64,000 nt of DNA from Acorus gramineus (taxonomy: Eukaryota; Streptophyta; Magnoliopsida; Acorales; Acoraceae): contig CM060854.1 in assembly GCA_030737835.1 (NCBI GenBank), positions 19,473,553 through 19,537,552 of the forward strand, written 5' to 3'. Of the stretch, positions 25,882 to 62,600 are shown in pieces; within the stretch, counting starts at the first letter, position 1; the number at the start of each line of letters is the position of its first letter. The notes under the pieces were generated by a model. It was given only the letters and a program-made list of their open reading frames with translations. It searched no databases and was not told the DNA's origin. The position numbers and the translations under genes are program-made.

Positions 25882-26085
25882 TATATAGTTGAATGATAAT
25901 ATGTGGTCCGTGCGGTCTGTATGAACAACGTATATTCCTTATCAATGTATATGCGTCGATAAAGAAAGCATATAGCGCAGCAATGTATATGCTTCGATGA
26001 GATGCTTTCTCTATCGACACATATACTTCGATAAGGGAGATGCATGCGTGGTTCGCACGAACCACACGAAATGCATCATATCATT

Positions 26086-26126: not shown

Positions 26127-26185
26127 TCGAACTTTGATAATAGGTTAAGTTTTTGAACAGTTAGACAGAATAAACGTAATCACGT

Positions 26186-26214
26186 CGAGCCCACCTACTT
26201 TGACACCGTCCTCA
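26186..26214 (+). repeat. 29-bp copy of RNase exon 3 in the upstream region
   Basis: These 29 bases are identical to 27833-27861 inside exon 3 of the RNase gene below (coding for part of DEPTYFDTVL) and have the same orientation. The surrounding bases do not match the gene. Confidence 0.9.
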
Positions 26215-26428: not shown

Positions 26429-26436
26429 TATAAATA
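26429..26436 (+). promoter_or_regulatory. TATA box of the RNase T2-like gene
   Basis: TATAAATA lies 109 bases before the start codon, with a plausible cap region CTATCACTCC about 26 bases on. A purine-rich GAGAGAGAAAGAGAG leader directly precedes the ATG. This is the clearest core promoter in the window. Confidence 0.75.
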
Positions 26437-26544: not shown

Positions 26545-29190
26545 ATGGCTTCTCATGTTGCCCTAACTGCAGTCATGGTGGTGATGATGCTTGCCTCCTC
26601 CCAAACCATCAATGCTGCCGAGATTGGAGAATTTGATTTCTATTACCTTGTTCTCATGGTCTGCAATACATAATCTATGAAACACCTCCAAATGAAAACA
26701 TCAAAAAATTTAAATTTTGATTATTTGAATATGTATTTATTATATATATATGTATATGATATGTATGATTTAATATATACAGTGGCCTGGGGCGTACTGC
26801 GAGCAGTCGAAGGGGAAGTGTTGCATGCCAAAGACGGGGAAGCCGGAGATCGACTTCTTCGTCCGAGGACTCTGGACCGCCGATGCCACCACCGGCTCCC
26901 AAGTCACTAAGTGCAACCAAACCAGCTTCTATGTCAATCAGGTGATCATCCTTTGCATTATGCATGGATAAATATATGTATATATAATTTGTGTCATGAG
27001 TATGATTTTCATTTTTGTGAATAGATAATGTTAGTGATACTCTCCCATTCAGCTCTTGCATGTTTTGATTTTTTTTTTTTTCGAGAAAGGGTGTACATAT
27101 TTTTAGTAAAGAAGTCTTAGTGCTCCAATAAGTGATTTATCATATTTGTTATGCATAATAGTGTAAAAGCTAGGATAACATGCATCACTTATTTTATCTT
27201 TTATCTCGATTTGATAGATATGATTAATGACGAGATATATGGGCTTTTAATTATATCTAAAATTTAAAATTATTCTCCTATCAAACTATTCTTGAAAGCT
27301 ATGTTATGGTTGAAAAGTTGTGGAATATTTCTCATTTTTCTTCTAGGATGATGGATCAGTTTAGAATTCTGGTCCAAAAGTAAAATGCCACTTTCATGTA
27401 AAATCCAATTCTGGTTGATTATGTGAGAAGGATGAATGAAGAGAGTAGTCTACTGATCACATGAATAAAAGAATTCAAAAAGTCATTCATATGGGTGTTC
27501 CAGCAAATTAAAAGAAGAATAAATGTATTATCAAACTGCACCTAAGAATTCCTAAACACTACACAAGTGCAAATTAAAGAGCTTTACATAAAATCATTTT
27601 TAAAAGATCTTACACAAGACCTACATATCTTTCATAATCAGATCCACATAGAGCCTGTGCTCGTATTCAGAAAAACGTATAATTAATTAACTTCAAAATG
27701 CATGTATGAACAGCTGGATGGTTTGAGTTCTGAGCTTGCAAAGTATTGGAGCAACATAAGGTGCCCCTCCAACAATGGGGTCTCCAACTGGAAGAGCACC
27801 TGGAAGACCTATGGCATCTGCTCCGGCCTCGACGAGCCCACCTACTTTGACACCGTCCTCAATATGAGGTCGAAGATCGAGCTCCTCAGCCTGCTTGTCG
27901 GCCAGGGTAATTGCTTATTTTTTAGTCTCTGCTTATATGTGAACAACCAGATTAATTTGAATCTCACACACAAAATTGGTATTGGGTGATTACAAAGGAA
28001 TTGGACTCACTCACCATGAAAAAGAAAAGAAAAGAAATAACTGGACTCAAAACACTAATTTAAAAGGGGCGTTGATACACTCGGTCCTAATCGAGCACGC
28101 ATTTTATCTAATCAAGCATATGTCTAATCACACAAGTATATATCTAATTAGAAAAGGTGCAATAATACATACATTCAATTCATTCTTGTGAATATATAAT
28201 TCGTTATACATTTACAAAGACTAAAACGTGTTGGAATTGCGAAAATAATAGTATGAATGACTGTAGTCGTGTGACATATACTGATAAGTCATGTACAATT
28301 TAGAGTATGGAAAACTTTCATATTTGATAAAGTCCTCTCTCCAAATTGAAATCAAGGCTAAAATAAGTAATTTGCTTTAGTCTTGGGTATTGTTAGATTT
28401 TTTAAATCTGTGTTTTATATTTCACTTTCTTCAAAAAAAAATTACTATTGCTAGTTAAATTTAAAAATGAGGGATTAAATATGATTATTGCAAAATCACA
28501 AGTCTCTAAAAATTATTCAAACTCGTTCTTTCCCAAACATTACTACACAACATGCATCCATTTCATTAATTGTAATCCATCAGTGCACCCTTTTGTTTCC
28601 ACACAAACTATTCTTTAAGAACTGCGTAGGATGTCTAATCATTTCAATGATTAAACACTCCATAAAGATCAAAATTTAGATAATAATCAATTAATAAAAA
28701 CACTCTCCATGATTTGAACCAATCATAAACCAAATTTTATTCTCATAAAACCATTTTTTAAATAATCAATTCCAAACAAGCTAAGCATTTAAAAAAAAAA
28801 AAAAAAACTTTCAGATTCAATTTTTATGCATTAAAAGTCAATCATTTTAAGCGCTAGCTGTTTTTGAAAATTGATTCTAAATGAGACCTGGTCGCTTTCC
28901 CCTCGCCCAAAATTGAAGGTTACGGTCCATCAAACACGGCCTACTACCGGACATCGGACATCGAGGCAGCGATCTCATCGGTCATCGGGGCGAGACCGGT
29001 GATCCGGTGCAGCAAGGACCAGTCCGGCGAGTTCCAGCTCTATGAGGTCTATGTATGTGTGAACAAGGAGGCGACCGAAGTCATCGAATGCCCGTCGCCG
29101 CCGGCGTTCACCTGCTCTGACTTCATTCGCTTCCACCCCTTCACCTATGACATGCTCAAGGTCAAGCTTGCCATGCCTGCTTCAGGCTGA
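26545..29190 (+). CDS. RNase T2 / S-like RNase homologue lacking catalytic residues
   Basis: Exons 26545-26658, 26783-26941, 27714-27906 and 28919-29190 join in frame (GT...AG introns) to 245 codons. Residues 1-24 form a signal peptide (MASHVALTAVMVVMMLASSQ), so the product should enter the secretory path or vacuole. The fold signatures FDFYYLVLMWPGAYC, CC, the first conserved segment (residues 63-69, FFVRGLW), the second (116-128, NWKSTWKTYGICS) and the C-terminal Cys pairs are all present, and length fits the family. In active RNase T2 enzymes these segments read F-x-I-H-G-L-W and W-K-H-E-W-x-K-H-G-T-C. Here His is Arg66 and Tyr124, Glu is Thr120 and Lys is Thr123, so RNA cleavage is not expected. 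Barley and rice have described S-like homologues without both histidines. A storage or stress role is inference. No stop or frame break exists, which argues against a pseudogene. Confidence 0.9.
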
Positions 29191-31401: not shown

Positions 31402-34400
31402 CTACATCGCACTTTCTTTCCTCTTGACCCTTCTCCGTTTTCTTGACTGTTCTTCCCCACCCATTTGCGTTATATGACCAATGGACCCTAATTGGCTGTC
31501 ACCCGACACGTTTTCAGTGATATCACCGGACGATGAGTCTGAATCTCCATCGGAGGGACTCTTATCCGAGGTCTGCATTTCCCGTACCTGAGTGAGAAGT
31601 CTCATCATTTCTTCTTGTACATAGTCGAAACGTTCTTTTGTTAAAGACGATTCGTGGACCAACATCTTGGTGAGGGACTGCAGAGCACGAGCCCGATCGG
31701 TCTTTCCGGTCTGACTACTGTGGTTTGTTTTTCGAAACATCGAGCTTTCCCGGCGCCATCGGATCGGAAGATATTTATCAGGGAGGTTGAAACAATTCTT
31801 CAGTGTTAGCATCCGAAGAGCATGCCTGCAAAGTATGCCTGTGGTCTCAAACATCTTGCAACTGCAAATGACCTCTTCATCGGAAGGAATCCAACTAACG
31901 ACACGCCCACCATCCATTTTCATGCGATGTCGCACAAGGGAATTCCCATTCGCTAGGTCGAACAACGCGTATTGCGTGGACATGACGATTTCATTTTGTA
32001 GCATGTTGAAAGCGTAATGGGTGAGTATTGGGGACGCGTGTTCTTCGATTGGCATGCATGTCTTGATATTAATGGTCTGATACTTTTGTCGCACGGTTGC
32101 TTCTTCCCCCGCTTGATTGCCTAAATCAGCCGCAGCAGCCACCTACGAGTATGAAAAAAGAATATTTTAAAAAAAAATTAGGCCTGTCAATGGAGCACAT
32201 AATGTGTTCAAATCCATATCTGAACTTAATATCCAAAAAAATATCCATATTTGACAACCATATCCAATTTGAACATTTGGATTCATATTCGAGTAGTTAT
32301 CCAAAATATCTAAATGGATACAAATGATCCGATATCCGAAAGAAAAATCATATATTCAATATACAAAATAAGTAAAAAATCTAACAATTACTCAACCTAA
32401 AACATAGATTCATAAGCATTTACATAAATCAATATATGGTTTAACATAAAAGCAATAATAACAGCACATATTAATCCCAGAGTGTGTATATATATAAATA
32501 TTGATACAATAAATAATAATAATAAAATTATATTTGAATATGGATATTTTTCGAAGAGGACACAGAGGACACCATCATATATATCTGCTACGCAATCTTT
32601 CAGATACAGATATTTATGTCAGAAATGGATTTTCAGAGAGATTTTTTCAGATATGGATTTGGATTGAATATGTAACAAGCTTAAAAGAAATTTTCATAAT
32701 TGACAGGAAGTTCTAATGGAAAAAATGGGCCAAAGATTCAACAGCTACCCGCTCGATAAAGTCCTTCAGACGCGTCCTTGAGTTCAAGAATCCCTTAAAG
32801 AAAGAACTTATCGACTTTGAATGCTCGACTGTCGTCATTCGAGCAAGGAAGAAACCTCTCAGATACGGAAGTGCACAAAATGGGCGTTGAGAAAAAAGCA
32901 ATGTGATATGTCTATCTGAAACAAGTCCAAACTCGATCACCATCTGCTCCCATTGATGCTCGAAATCATCTGCCGCTTCCAGATTATACAACCTTAGGAA
33001 TTCAGATTTGAACTTCTCGTACTGTGTTCCAAGTGGAAGGAAGAACCAGCTGTATAACTTGGACATGACATGCCAAATTGAGAACACGTGCTTTGTTTCT
33101 GGCAGTTCATTTACTATAGCATCTCTAAGACTCATATCTATATCGGTCAATATTGTTTGAGGGGGTCTCCCATTCATTATGCGTAGAAAAGCCTACAATT
33201 AAAAGAATAGAAAGTATGAGACCAGAATGTCTATCAAATACAGCAAAAGATCTTAATAAAGTAAGCCAAATGGGATGGAAAAACCAAAAAGTAAACACAC
33301 CTGTAATGCCCATTGAAAGGAACTTGGTTTTTCATCTCGCAACAACACACAACCAAAGAAAGTCGTGTTCCCGTGATTGTCCATACCAAACCACATCCCA
33401 ATGTGAATGTCGTATGCATCCAAGCGACACGTTGTATCAAAAACCACCGTGTCTCCAAACAAACTATACGCACGAATCGAATCTCCATATGACCATGCAA
33501 TATGTTCGAGCTTATGATTCTCATCCATTGTGAATTCGTAACAAAAATCCATATCCTTATCTTTCATTCCCTTACAGACCTTAAGAAGCTCCGTTCCATC
33601 ATTTTCTCGGTCAACACTTTTGGAGGACTGAAGGAAATTTCTAAGGTCCCTTTCTATAAATGGAAGCTGACCGGTCTGTACACCCTTCTCCAATTCAAGC
33701 ATCTTCATTATTAAACTCACAGTACAACCGGCCTTTGAAAGAACTAAAATGCGATCTTGATCAGCCACAGAAATATTACGATACGCGGGAAGATGACGTA
33801 CTTCCTCATGGTCCAACAATTCATGGTTGTGTTCATTACTAAACTGAATAACCACCCAACGAGGAATTCCGGATTTCATATCCTTCTTGATTATCATTCT
33901 TGCCTCGCATTTACATCGTGAAGATTTTTTGTTTCTCTGGCGTTCGACTTCCACGGATTTCCGTGGCGCAGCAAATCCTGCACGATGACACACAAGCTCC
34001 CTTTTGTAGATTCCCAGCGGATGACCTTGGCTTCCCTTTGAGCGTTCCCTCCTGATAGAAAAACCATTCTGTCTCGCAAAATTGGTGTAAAATTCTTGGG
34101 CATCATCATCACTACGGAACACTTGCCCCACACGTGGTGTGATATCCATAGGTCTAGCACCTTCGGATGGGGTCCGTAGCATCCCCATTGGATGGCTTGG
34201 ATCAACTGGGCCCACGGGAACTACTGCTGTATCTTCTACGTCTCCATCTGTTCGAACATAACATTGTTCATCGCCACAAGGGCATCGTCGAGATCGGACC
34301 CAGCAACCACTGCTTCTCGGGGGAGTTGCGACCATTTTTAGTGGATCCTATTGTAAATGAAACAAGAACAATCATATATAAAACCAGAGTAAGGGAATGT

Positions 34401-58394: not shown

Positions 58395-61300
58395 ATAACT
58401 AGCTGACTACCCTGCATATAAATGGATGACGCTCCCACACATTGCGTTCCCCAATCTCGAATGGATCTGATTGTGGACTCCCACACGTTCTCCGCATACG
58501 GGCTTTCACCTCAAAATATGACTCCATTTCGTGAGATCCATATTGCCCACACCGTAGCCGGAACATAAATTTGAGAGAGCTTAGCCCGCGCACTTCTATC
58601 TCTTGTTCTACGTAACTTCCGCCCTGCCTCCCACATCTCCTCTGTCGTCGAGAAATCACACATCATACTCGTCGCCTTATGAAGCCACTCTCATACCTTC
58701 CGTGCCATATATTGTACAAGAAATGAACAAATGATTCAGAGTCTCATCCTCATTGTCACACATCACACATCTTAAGTCTGTTTGAGGTGCCCAAAGGGAA
58801 ATGCGGTCTCGAGTAAAGACTTTTCCGAGATAAATAATCCACATGAAGGCTTTCACTTTTAATGGAATATGCGATCTCCACACCTCCCTGTGTTTTGTAG
58901 CTGTGACCGCGGTGGTCAGGATGCCCCTCCTTAACCAGTGATACCCACTCCGCACCGAAAACCCCTCGACCGGCTTAGGCCTCCATATTGGTTGATCCTC
59001 CTTGGTTGGGTCTGCTGCCCACTCTTGAAGAATCTCTAAGAGGGACAAGTAAGCATCTATCTCGTTATCGTTTAGGTTGCGGTGCACTCAAACTTTCCAA
59101 AACCCTGTTTCTCCTCGGATGGCCCAGTGGTTTTGCACAACCCCATCTCTATCATAAGCAATTTGAAAGATAGAGGGGAATCTCACCTTGAGGGCGTTCT
59201 CCCTTATTCAAATGTCATGCCAAAAACTAATATGTGAGCCTGAACCCAGCCTCCACCGTATAGCTTCAGTGAAATCGTCTAGACCGCCAAGAATGGCTTT
59301 CCATATACTCGAGCTGTTGCTGCTAAGATGGGGGAATCTGGTTGTTGCCCTGTCTGCGCTCCCATATCTAGCTTGGACTACTCAGCACCATAGGAGATTG
59401 GAATCAGCCATCGCCATAGCCATTTCATCAGCAGCGCCCTATTCATATCCCTAAGGTTGAGAATTCACGCCCCTCCCGACTATTTACTGCTGCACACTGT
59501 TTCCCAATTCTCTAGGTGAACCTTATTGCTGTCCTCCTTTGCCCCATTCCACATGAAACGGCGCCGGATGACCTTTATTCGTTGGAGGATTCCTTTTGGC
59601 ATTTTGAATAATGACATGTAGAATATGGGGAGGTTAGACAGAACAGCCTGCAGCAAAGTAATTCGACCCCCTAAGCTGAGGAACTTGCTCGACCAGCCCT
59701 CTAAGCGTTTCTCAAAACGGTTCATCAGAGGCAGCCACTCCCTCCTCTGTATGTGTCCTGTGTGAAGAGGTAAACCCAAAAGTATAGTAGGGAACTGTTG
59801 GACCTTGCATCCGAATATACCAGCATAAGAGAGCAGGGTCCCTTGATCAACATTAATTCCCAAAAGAGCGCTTTTGTTGAAATTGATTTTGAGGCCCGAT
59901 AGAAGTTTAAAGATCCGGCGCATGGACTTTACCCCTCTAAATGACAATCCTGAAGCCTTCGTCAACACCACCGTGTCGTCTGCGTATTGAACATGCGAGA
60001 TGCTCAAACCGCCTGTCACACATGGTAGTCCGGATACCCACCCCGCCACAGATGCCATCTTCATCATCCTGTTGAACACGTTAGCCACAATAACGAAAAG
60101 CAGTGGAGAGAGAGGATCTCCCTGTCGCAAACCGTTATTTATAGGAAAGAACCCACAAGGGAGGCCATTAATTAACACTGAAGCCTTGGCCGTCGAAATG
60201 CAAGTCGAGATCATACGCACCCAATTCGGCTCAAAACCATGGCATTGGAGAAGATGCAACAGGAAATCCCAATTGACGTTGTCATATGCTTTGGCAAAGT
60301 CGAGCTTGATTACCACCCCTTCTCTCCGCTCTCTATGCATTGTTGAAATGCATTCCTGTGCTGCCATGAATCCATCCCGCAATACTCTCCCCAGAATGAA
60401 AGCAGATTGTCACTCATCCACCAGGAAACCGATCACCTCTTTCAGTCGGTTGGTCAATACTCTCGAAATCATTTTGTAGCATCCGTTCACCAAAGCAATC
60501 GGCTTGAAGTCACCAATCTCTATTGCCCCTTTTTTCTTCGGAATGAGAGCCAAAAAAGTTGCATTCATCTTCCCTACCCCCTCGAAGAGCGAAAGAACTC
60601 CCTGAACATTTCCATGATATCCGGCTTGAGAAGCTTCCAAAACTCTTAATAGAATCTAGGCCCAAAACCATCTGGGCCCGGGGCTTTATCAACTTCACCC
60701 CCAAAAATGGCAGCTTTAATTTCCTCCTCATTGAATTCGCCCTCGAGTCTCTGGAAAAACTGGTCCAGTATACGGCCCAAGTCCTCATCGTACCACACTA
60801 GTCTCCATTTTCCTGTCCTCTCAAATGCCGCAGTGTAATGTTCCACAATCTCCTCTTGGATGTCAGCCATATTATGAATCTTAGAATCTCCCACCTGCAG
60901 TTTCTCAATCCTATTTATGCGTCTCCTCTGATTCGCACACCTGTGAAAGTATTTTGTATTATTATCAACCTCCTCTAACCATATTGCTCGAGATTTCTGT
61001 CTCAATTCCGCTTCATCCATGCAAACATAACCTAACCATTCATCTTTCAGTCTTCCACGATCCACTCTATCCTCCTCACTTAGAAGTCCCACTTCTTCCC
61101 GACTGTCGAGCACTACTAATTGACCCTCTACCTCCTGCTTTCGAGTTCTGCGAGTCCGAGCCATTTCTCTACACCAACTTTTGAGCCTTAATTTCAATCT
61201 TTTGAGTTTAAATACAAGCTTTGAGGCGCCTGATAAATCCCCCGCCTCTCCCGCCCACGAATTTTCCACTAGAACTCTGAATTCAGGTTTAAGAAGCCAC

Positions 61301-62600
61301 CAATTTTCAAATCGAAACCATGCTGGTTTCCTCCTTTGTTCCCCTCCCACCAAAACCAGGGGAGTATGATCAGAGCATATCCGAGGCAGGCCACTCAACG
61401 GCATAACGGATAAGCCGCCTCCCACTCTGCATCAATAAGAACCCTGTCCAATCTAGCCAACGCCGGCATCTCCCTCATGCTACTCCAGATGAAATTTTGA
61501 TTAGCAATTGGTAGATCTGTGAGACCCTCCGCTGCAATCCAATCAGAAAACAGCTCCATTTGCCCTGTCATCAGCCCAGCTCTGTTCCGGTCCTCTATGA
61601 ATCTTGTCACATTGAAATCCCCTAGCACGCACCAAGAAAAACTGTGCACTGGCTTCACCTGACTAAGCTCCTCCCACATAGTCTGCCTGCGAGCGTCCTC
61701 ACATGGTCCGTACACCAAGGAACACAACCACTTCCATTGTGAGGATCTGTTTTCAAAAATCACTGAAAGGGAGAACTCCCCTTCCACCGAGGTGACCTTC
61801 CTCCACATGCTGTTGTTCGAACATATTAAAATCCCTCCAGACGCCCCGATCGACGGTTTAAACACAAATTCTGTTAAGTTCCCCTCACAGATTTCCCGGA
61901 TATCGTTTTGAGAGATAGAATCCTTCTTAGTTTCTTGAATGCAACAAATTGTCACCCTGTTTGTCGAGATGTGCTCTTTTACTGCTGCCTTCTTCCTAGG
62001 GTCATTCAGGCCCCGAACATTCCATATAAGTATGTCTAACATAAACAACCTGTTCGCCCCGCCCGAAAACACATCCAACAAGCTTCAGTGTCCTCCCAGC
62101 ATGCCCGCCATCCCAGCTTCCCCCAGTGCCACATCGAAATGATCCTCTGAAGCGTACTTCATGAACCTCCACCTAGAATCTGTCTAGCTCTTGTACTCCC
62201 GCCTCTTCTCCCTTAACGCACGCTGGTGATCCTTTGAACTCCTCTGCAAGCCCCAATATCTCTGTCTCCTCCGTAGATAACCTGACTTCCTTCGGACTCC
62301 CCAATGATCCTTGACTTTGGACACTGGCCATCCTCCGAGGGGACAGAGACTTCGGCCCCTCCTCCTCCCATTCCCTATCCAGCAGACCCTTCAACCCACA
62401 GTCTAAATCTCCATAGACGGAGCGAACCCCCGAACCTTCTCCTTCCACCTCCGAAAGTGAAAGAGGGACGCGAGATAGGTTAAGGCTCCCCACCACAATC
62501 GATGGTAGCCAACCCGATCGACGAGCGTTCATCTTCTGAGAGGAACCCGGAAGACCCCTCGATGCGCAGTCCCTCGCCATTGACAAGGCCTTGGACGAAA
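58395..62600 (-). mobile_element. Near full-length, inactivated L1-type LINE
   Basis: In order on -: a linker/ORF1 remnant (62586-62173, acidic, no zinc knuckle seen); the ORF2 endonuclease (62081-61395: LIWNVRGLNDPRKKAAV, CIQETK, LVYGPCED, VLGDFNVTRF), continuing in another frame with SDHTPLVLVGG; a linker; reverse transcriptase (60640-59480: FKPIALVNGCYK, VVIKLDFAKAYDNVNWDF, GLRQGDPLSPLLFVIVANVF, HVQYADDTVVL); and a zinc-knuckle RT tail (59087-58677: HIPLKVKAFMWIIYLGKVFT, CVMCDNEDETLNHLF). At least two frame changes (near 61420 and 60590) and stops (near 60645 and 60405) break ORF2. No poly(A) tail or target duplication is visible, so the 3' end may be cut. It is much older than the copy at 51029. 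Confidence 0.9.

Follow-up and report, generated by a model that had tools for sequence, protein, structure and literature searches.

An intact plant RNase T2 gene with replaced catalytic residues and signs of purifying selection

What becomes of a ribonuclease gene when all residues that cleave RNA are replaced and the gene itself stays whole? This question is raised by an RNase T2 gene in the 64,000-nucleotide stretch of plant DNA that we analysed (contig CM060854.1, positions 19,473,553 to 19,537,552 of the forward strand; the window). The gene, C8 in the following, is intact and occupies window positions 26545-29190 with four exons. The joined exons comprise 738 nt and encode 245 amino acids with no stop inside, and the three introns are all of the GT-AG type, in phases 0, 0 and 1. 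In a Pfam profile search the protein is assigned to PF00445 with 156.1 bits against a gathering score of 26, covering profile positions 1-188. The G+C content at third codon positions (GC3) is 0.74, compared to 0.19-0.29 for the G+C content of the introns, and GC3 of the RNase genes of this genome lies between 0.55 and 0.74, a range that would be in keeping with a monocot. The original prediction, made from the sequence alone, had listed four in-phase exons, a TATA box, a poly(A) signal, the fold cysteines and a signal peptide, and all of these are present, the signal peptide being a call by eye. We propose, with a probability of roughly 0.7, that C8 encodes an ancient S-like RNase of the type known from rice OsRNS4, which lacks catalysis and is maintained by selection.

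The catalytic set of C8 is replaced completely. CAS I reads FFVRGLW and CAS II reads NWKSTWKTYGICS, and R66, S119, T120, T123 and Y124 align to His34, His83, Glu84, Lys87 and His88 of RNase MC1. The five substitutions had been named in the original prediction and the alignment bears them out. As a reference we used the 96 columns that are invariant in five active-type class I RNases, two encoded in the same genome (C7a and C11b) and three taken from a PDB search (NW, 1iyb; NGR3, 1vcz; LE, 1dix). C8 shares with these proteins the fold, the ten cysteines and 37-39% identity, but each of them has the complete catalytic set and intact Gln9 and Phe80 sites (MC1 numbering). In C8, 10 of the 10 cysteines, none of the five catalytic residues and 49 of the 81 other invariant columns are retained, so that the catalytic loss stands out from the rest of the invariant columns (Fisher p=0.007). 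From these replacements we infer that the protein no longer cleaves RNA.

The same genome (398.6 Mb) harbors a number of relatives. The Pfam search gave 16 matched stretches and the protein search 21, both being lower bounds from first-look searches, and they group into at least eight places, namely C8, C6, C69, C2, two on C11 and two on C7. C6 is a second intact gene without catalytic residues; its protein retains 10/10 cysteines, 0/5 catalytic residues and 47/81 other invariant columns. It agrees with C8 in the three intron sites and their phases, in the Thr and Tyr that replace Glu and His in CAS II, in a Gln to Met exchange and in the FTYDMLK tail. However, the two proteins are only 42% identical, and C6 has Ser instead of Arg at CAS I, Glu instead of Thr at the Lys87 site, an isoelectric point (pI) of 7.8 and a longer C-terminus. 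C69 is a dead gene that has lost its reading frame in exons 1, 2 and 4, and C2 is an exon-4 relic that carries an insertion. By eye, this insertion of about 550 bp, which splits the relic (L015 3421-3977), is rich in GGATAT-like repeats. On C7 there is the active-type gene C7a and, elsewhere at 3.49 Mb, a class II-like gene. Both C11 places have intact CAS motifs and are about 98% identical in DNA; C11b is the one that was modelled. They lie 483 kb apart in opposite orientation, at 9.383 Mb (minus strand) and 9.866 Mb (plus strand), on L010 and L011, and represent either a recent duplication or an assembly effect. One scan each of viral_contigs and genome_contigs, neither of them a plant genome collection, returned no confirmed relative of the C8 protein.

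How old is the inactive state? Our tree has nine rows; C69, C11a, the class II gene at C7:3.49 Mb, the C2 relic and grass sequences stand outside it. C8 and C6 form a clade with support of 99/96 that is present in 100% of 200 bootstrap trees, a grouping in which long branches could attract each other. Together they are grouped, with low support (59/28), with NGR3 and CalsepRRP. The three introns of C8 lie at the same alignment columns and in the same phases as those of the class I genes C7a and C11b. Thirty invariant columns are lost in both C8 and C6, and in 15 of these the replacement is identical, including M38, I106, T120 and Y124. In addition, both proteins have one extra residue ahead of the CC pair, and their FTYDMLK tail is absent from C7a and C11b. 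Since T120 and Y124 are identical, the comparison suggests that Glu and His of CAS II were already missing in the common ancestor of C8 and C6. In CAS I, His was changed to Arg in C8 and to Ser in C6. The clade and the shared M38, T120, Y124 and FTYDMLK tail therefore indicate that inactivity probably predates the split of the two genes.

These shared replacements also bear on the idea that C8 encodes an amino-acid storage protein, similar to CalsepRRP of Calystegia or the ginseng major root protein, in which a stable fold is kept for stockpiling. Amino-acid storage was proposed for OsRNS4 by the rice authors (PMC5520845), and CalsepRRP is the fourth-best match of the PDB search. Yet CalsepRRP itself retains three of the five catalytic residues, and C8 is not enriched in nitrogen (asparagine plus glutamine 7.3%, versus 9.4 and 9.9% in two active paralogues). 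Moreover, identical replacements in 15 of 30 columns seem to exceed what bulk storage would require. The nitrogen content and the shared new cleft residues thus speak weakly against mere storage, and we regard this explanation as unlikely.

A protein with the RNase fold might also bind RNA or active RNases without cutting and act as a decoy or dominant inhibitor. In RNase MC1 the B2 site binds the base via Gln9, Asn71, Leu73 and Phe80, while Lys87 touches the phosphate (PMC9266746). The corresponding places in C8 are M38, N105, R107, N116 and T123. N105 matches MC1 Asn71, where the active class I proteins have Thr or Ser, with Ala at the Leu73 site. Judged against the active set, the clear losses in the predicted base pocket are those at Gln9 (M38) and Phe80 (N116), and both sites are replaced in C6 as well. 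A decoy would profit from the retained fold and cysteine set, from Trp69 (Trp37 in the B1 site of MC1), from N105 and from the new basic residues at cleft sites, R66 and R107 (Ser and Lys in C6). It would, however, have to do without the B2 pocket residues and without the phosphate-holding Lys87, which is Thr in C8 and Glu in C6. Given the loss of the catalytic residues as well as of two residues of the base pocket, RNA binding is disfavoured, and a decoy or inhibitor appears very improbable to us. Among the roles that the original prediction had offered, RNA binding is thus weakened by the replacements at the Gln9 and Phe80 sites, and storage finds no support in the composition. E198 was removed from the list of cleft residues because the mapping at this column, where chain 1v9h has Glu and the MC1 paper gives Gln164, is unsure.

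As the original prediction had suggested, we estimated the ratio of nonsynonymous to synonymous change (dN/dS, omega) along the branches. We used a GY94 branch model written for this analysis with 199 codons, in which the broken codons of C69 were masked (240 of 255 usable); C11a, the class II gene at C7:3.49 Mb and the C2 relic stand outside the codon fits. On the C8 branch omega is 0.058 and a value of 1 is rejected, with twice the log-likelihood difference (2dlnL) being 11.8 in the grouped fit and 10.4 with all branches free. We quote the grouped fit because one constrained fit with omega free on every branch ran into a bound (omega of 20 for C7a). For the branch from which C6 and C69 arise, omega=1 is likewise rejected (2dlnL 11.1, grouped fit). 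Between C6 and C69, differences by codon position amount to 36, 30 and 62 of 244 sites. When neutral substitution was simulated, 572 of 1000 copies were still free of stops at 0.02 changes per site, 91 at 0.1, 4 at 0.25 and none at 1.45; the open frame of C8 therefore excludes a long period of neutrality and leaves room for a short one. A recently formed pseudogene in which no stop has arisen so far would agree with the 572 stop-free copies, with the broken state of its relatives C69 and C2 and with the piece of exon 3 found upstream of the gene. We consider it highly unlikely, however, as the intact C6 gene is dead as well and the dead state hence old, omega=1 across the whole C8 branch is rejected, and frame, splice sites, TATA box, poly(A) signal and GC3 are intact. 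The preference for a selected pseudoenzyme over a pseudogene in the original prediction finds support, with the intact frame, the second intact dead paralogue, the broken C69 as contrast and the rejected omega=1 in its favor.

Some observations weigh against an old gene under lasting selection. Synonymous divergence (dS) has reached saturation on the C8 branch (4.5), so that omega is rough in its size and the rejection of 1 is the actual result; a recent loss of constraint is possible. There is no rejection of omega=1 for the late C6 branch (2dlnL 0.3), C69 (2.3) and the stem (1.1), and none for the two short active branches (0.2 and 0.1). Since even the short active branches show no rejection, the test is powerful only on long branches. 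Furthermore, the basic shift of the pI reported for class I genes without the His is hardly seen in C8; with signal peptides cut by eye, the pI is 5.3 for C8, 7.8 for C6 and 4.8 for both C7a and C11b.

We still favor a selected, non-catalytic protein. C8 would descend from an ancient duplication within the class I S-like RNases, on a branch that lost catalysis before C8 and C6 separated, and purifying selection would have kept the gene for a non-catalytic role. The product would be a protein of the RNase T2 fold held by disulfide bonds, probably secreted or destined for the vacuole, and unable to cleave RNA. It might play a role like OsRNS4, as a stress-induced protein that binds a non-RNA partner via the remodelled cleft or the C-terminal tail. 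Overexpression of OsRNS4 reportedly leads to salt tolerance, going by a paper title in reference lists. As our best inference, a stress-linked binding protein seems to fit better than RNA binding or nitrogen storage. One may go further and imagine the inactive branch as a long-lived family beyond the grasses, with a single loss of catalysis, after which the cleft was rebuilt as a conserved pocket (M38, I106, T120, Y124) that, together with a conserved FTYDMLK tail, recognizes one particular partner or ligand other than RNA in stress signalling; at present this is a speculative extension that we would rather doubt. M38, T120, Y124 and the tail provide concrete targets for mutagenesis, and the divergent intact pair in one genome offers two long branches along which retained residues can be identified.

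Table 1. Coordinates of the C8 gene, its flanking signals and its intact inactive paralogue (window positions unless a locus is named)
Feature	Position	Strand	Remarks
Exon 1	26545..26658	+	Signal-like N-terminus and start of the mature protein; ends at M38 (MC1 Gln9 site)
Exon 2	26783..26941	+	CAS I region FFVRGLW, His to Arg66
Exon 3	27714..27906	+	CAS II region NWKSTWKTYGICS with S119, T120, T123, Y124; N116 at the MC1 Phe80 site
Exon 4	28919..29190	+	C-terminal part: last four Cys, FTYDMLK tail common to C6, stop codon
TATA box TATAAATA	26429..26436	+	Read in the sequence; motif position -116 (116 bp 5' of ATG)
Poly(A) signal AATAAA	29282..29287	+	Read in the sequence; 92 nt 3' of the stop
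Partial exon 3 copy	26183..26214	+	32 nt, 97% identical to 27830-27861; upstream of the TATA box
C6 paralogue	L009 1348-2975		Four exons; intact, catalytic residues lost

The features of the gene and its surroundings are collected in Table 1. The partial copy of exon 3 resembles a templated filler insertion; a genome search with its 28-nt core, allowing at most two mismatches, found only the occurrences at 26183-26214 and 27830-27861. Also upstream of the gene lies an inverted repeat of 40 nt with 85% complementarity and a 30-nt loop (25932-25971 and 26002-26041). The motif GNATATNC (P1BS) has a match 113 bp before the ATG of C7a (L012) and 108 bp before that of C11b (L011); in the 1 kb before the start codon, the matches of C8 and C6 all lie more than 550 bp away, and C69 has none. 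The P1BS matches fall in part into AT-repeat sequence and their counts were compared with mononucleotide shuffles alone, so that they serve as leads. On the minus strand of the window, three adjoining open frames with FAR1, MULE and SWIM domains (31402-34347) probably belong to either a FAR1-related gene or a Mutator-like transposase, and a LINE-type element with reverse transcriptase and endonuclease frames is found at 59480-62084.

Inactive RNases of the T2 family have been described before. A literature search combining ribonuclease T2, pseudoenzyme and plant turned up only work on viral exonucleases; our literature base also included PMC10459471, PMC5085738 and PMC5454074. Ramanauskas and Igic (PMC5598434) describe a grass clade of 37 class I sequences without one or both His as well as 30 further class I sequences of this kind, and suggest that the loss may signal a functional shift. 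If our plant is a grass, C8 would be a further member of the published clade; otherwise it would widen the clade or mark a separate loss. An rbcL insert on C10 of this genome agrees with either case: it matches chain 1wdd (rice) in 153 of 164 positions, 5wsk (wheat) in 151, 5iu0 (Arabidopsis) in 150 of 164 and 9chz in 152 of 163. Ten sites distinguish 1wdd and 5wsk from both 5iu0 and 9chz; the insert follows the latter pair in six of them and the former in three, and with one more sequence in the comparison three sites are left, split 2 against 1. CalsepRRP (PDB 1jy5), which Ramanauskas and Igic place in class II, is like C8 a T2 fold lacking the CAS I His, with Lys in its place, but unlike C8 it keeps Glu84, Lys87 and His88. 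Closer parallels are found in rice. OsRNS4 (Os09g0537700) and OsRNS5 have lost both catalytic His at the same two sites as C8 and share the CAS domains of a 'monocot inactive cluster' (PMC7793952). C8 shows the loss of catalytic His that characterizes this cluster (R66 and Y124), a likeness by residues and not by tree. OsRNS4 is induced 29-fold in Zn-deficient roots, the top induction ratio among 27,800 rice genes (PMC5520845), and is raised under salt, drought and phosphate starvation (PMC7793952). In PMC5520845 the role of inactive T2 RNases is termed unclear. The Glu that is Thr120 in C8 is lost only in OsRNS5 according to the results of that paper, while its discussion has it changed in the induced RNase too. 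The same source gives Lys66 and Tyr125 for OsRNS4 and Ala67, Ala121 and Ser125 for OsRNS5, in line with the original prediction that a class without the His was already known. With a basic residue at 66 followed by a Tyr at the second His site, C8 (Arg66, Tyr124) is by these residues nearer to OsRNS4 than to OsRNS5, and it adds to the already known class of inactive plant RNase T2 proteins.
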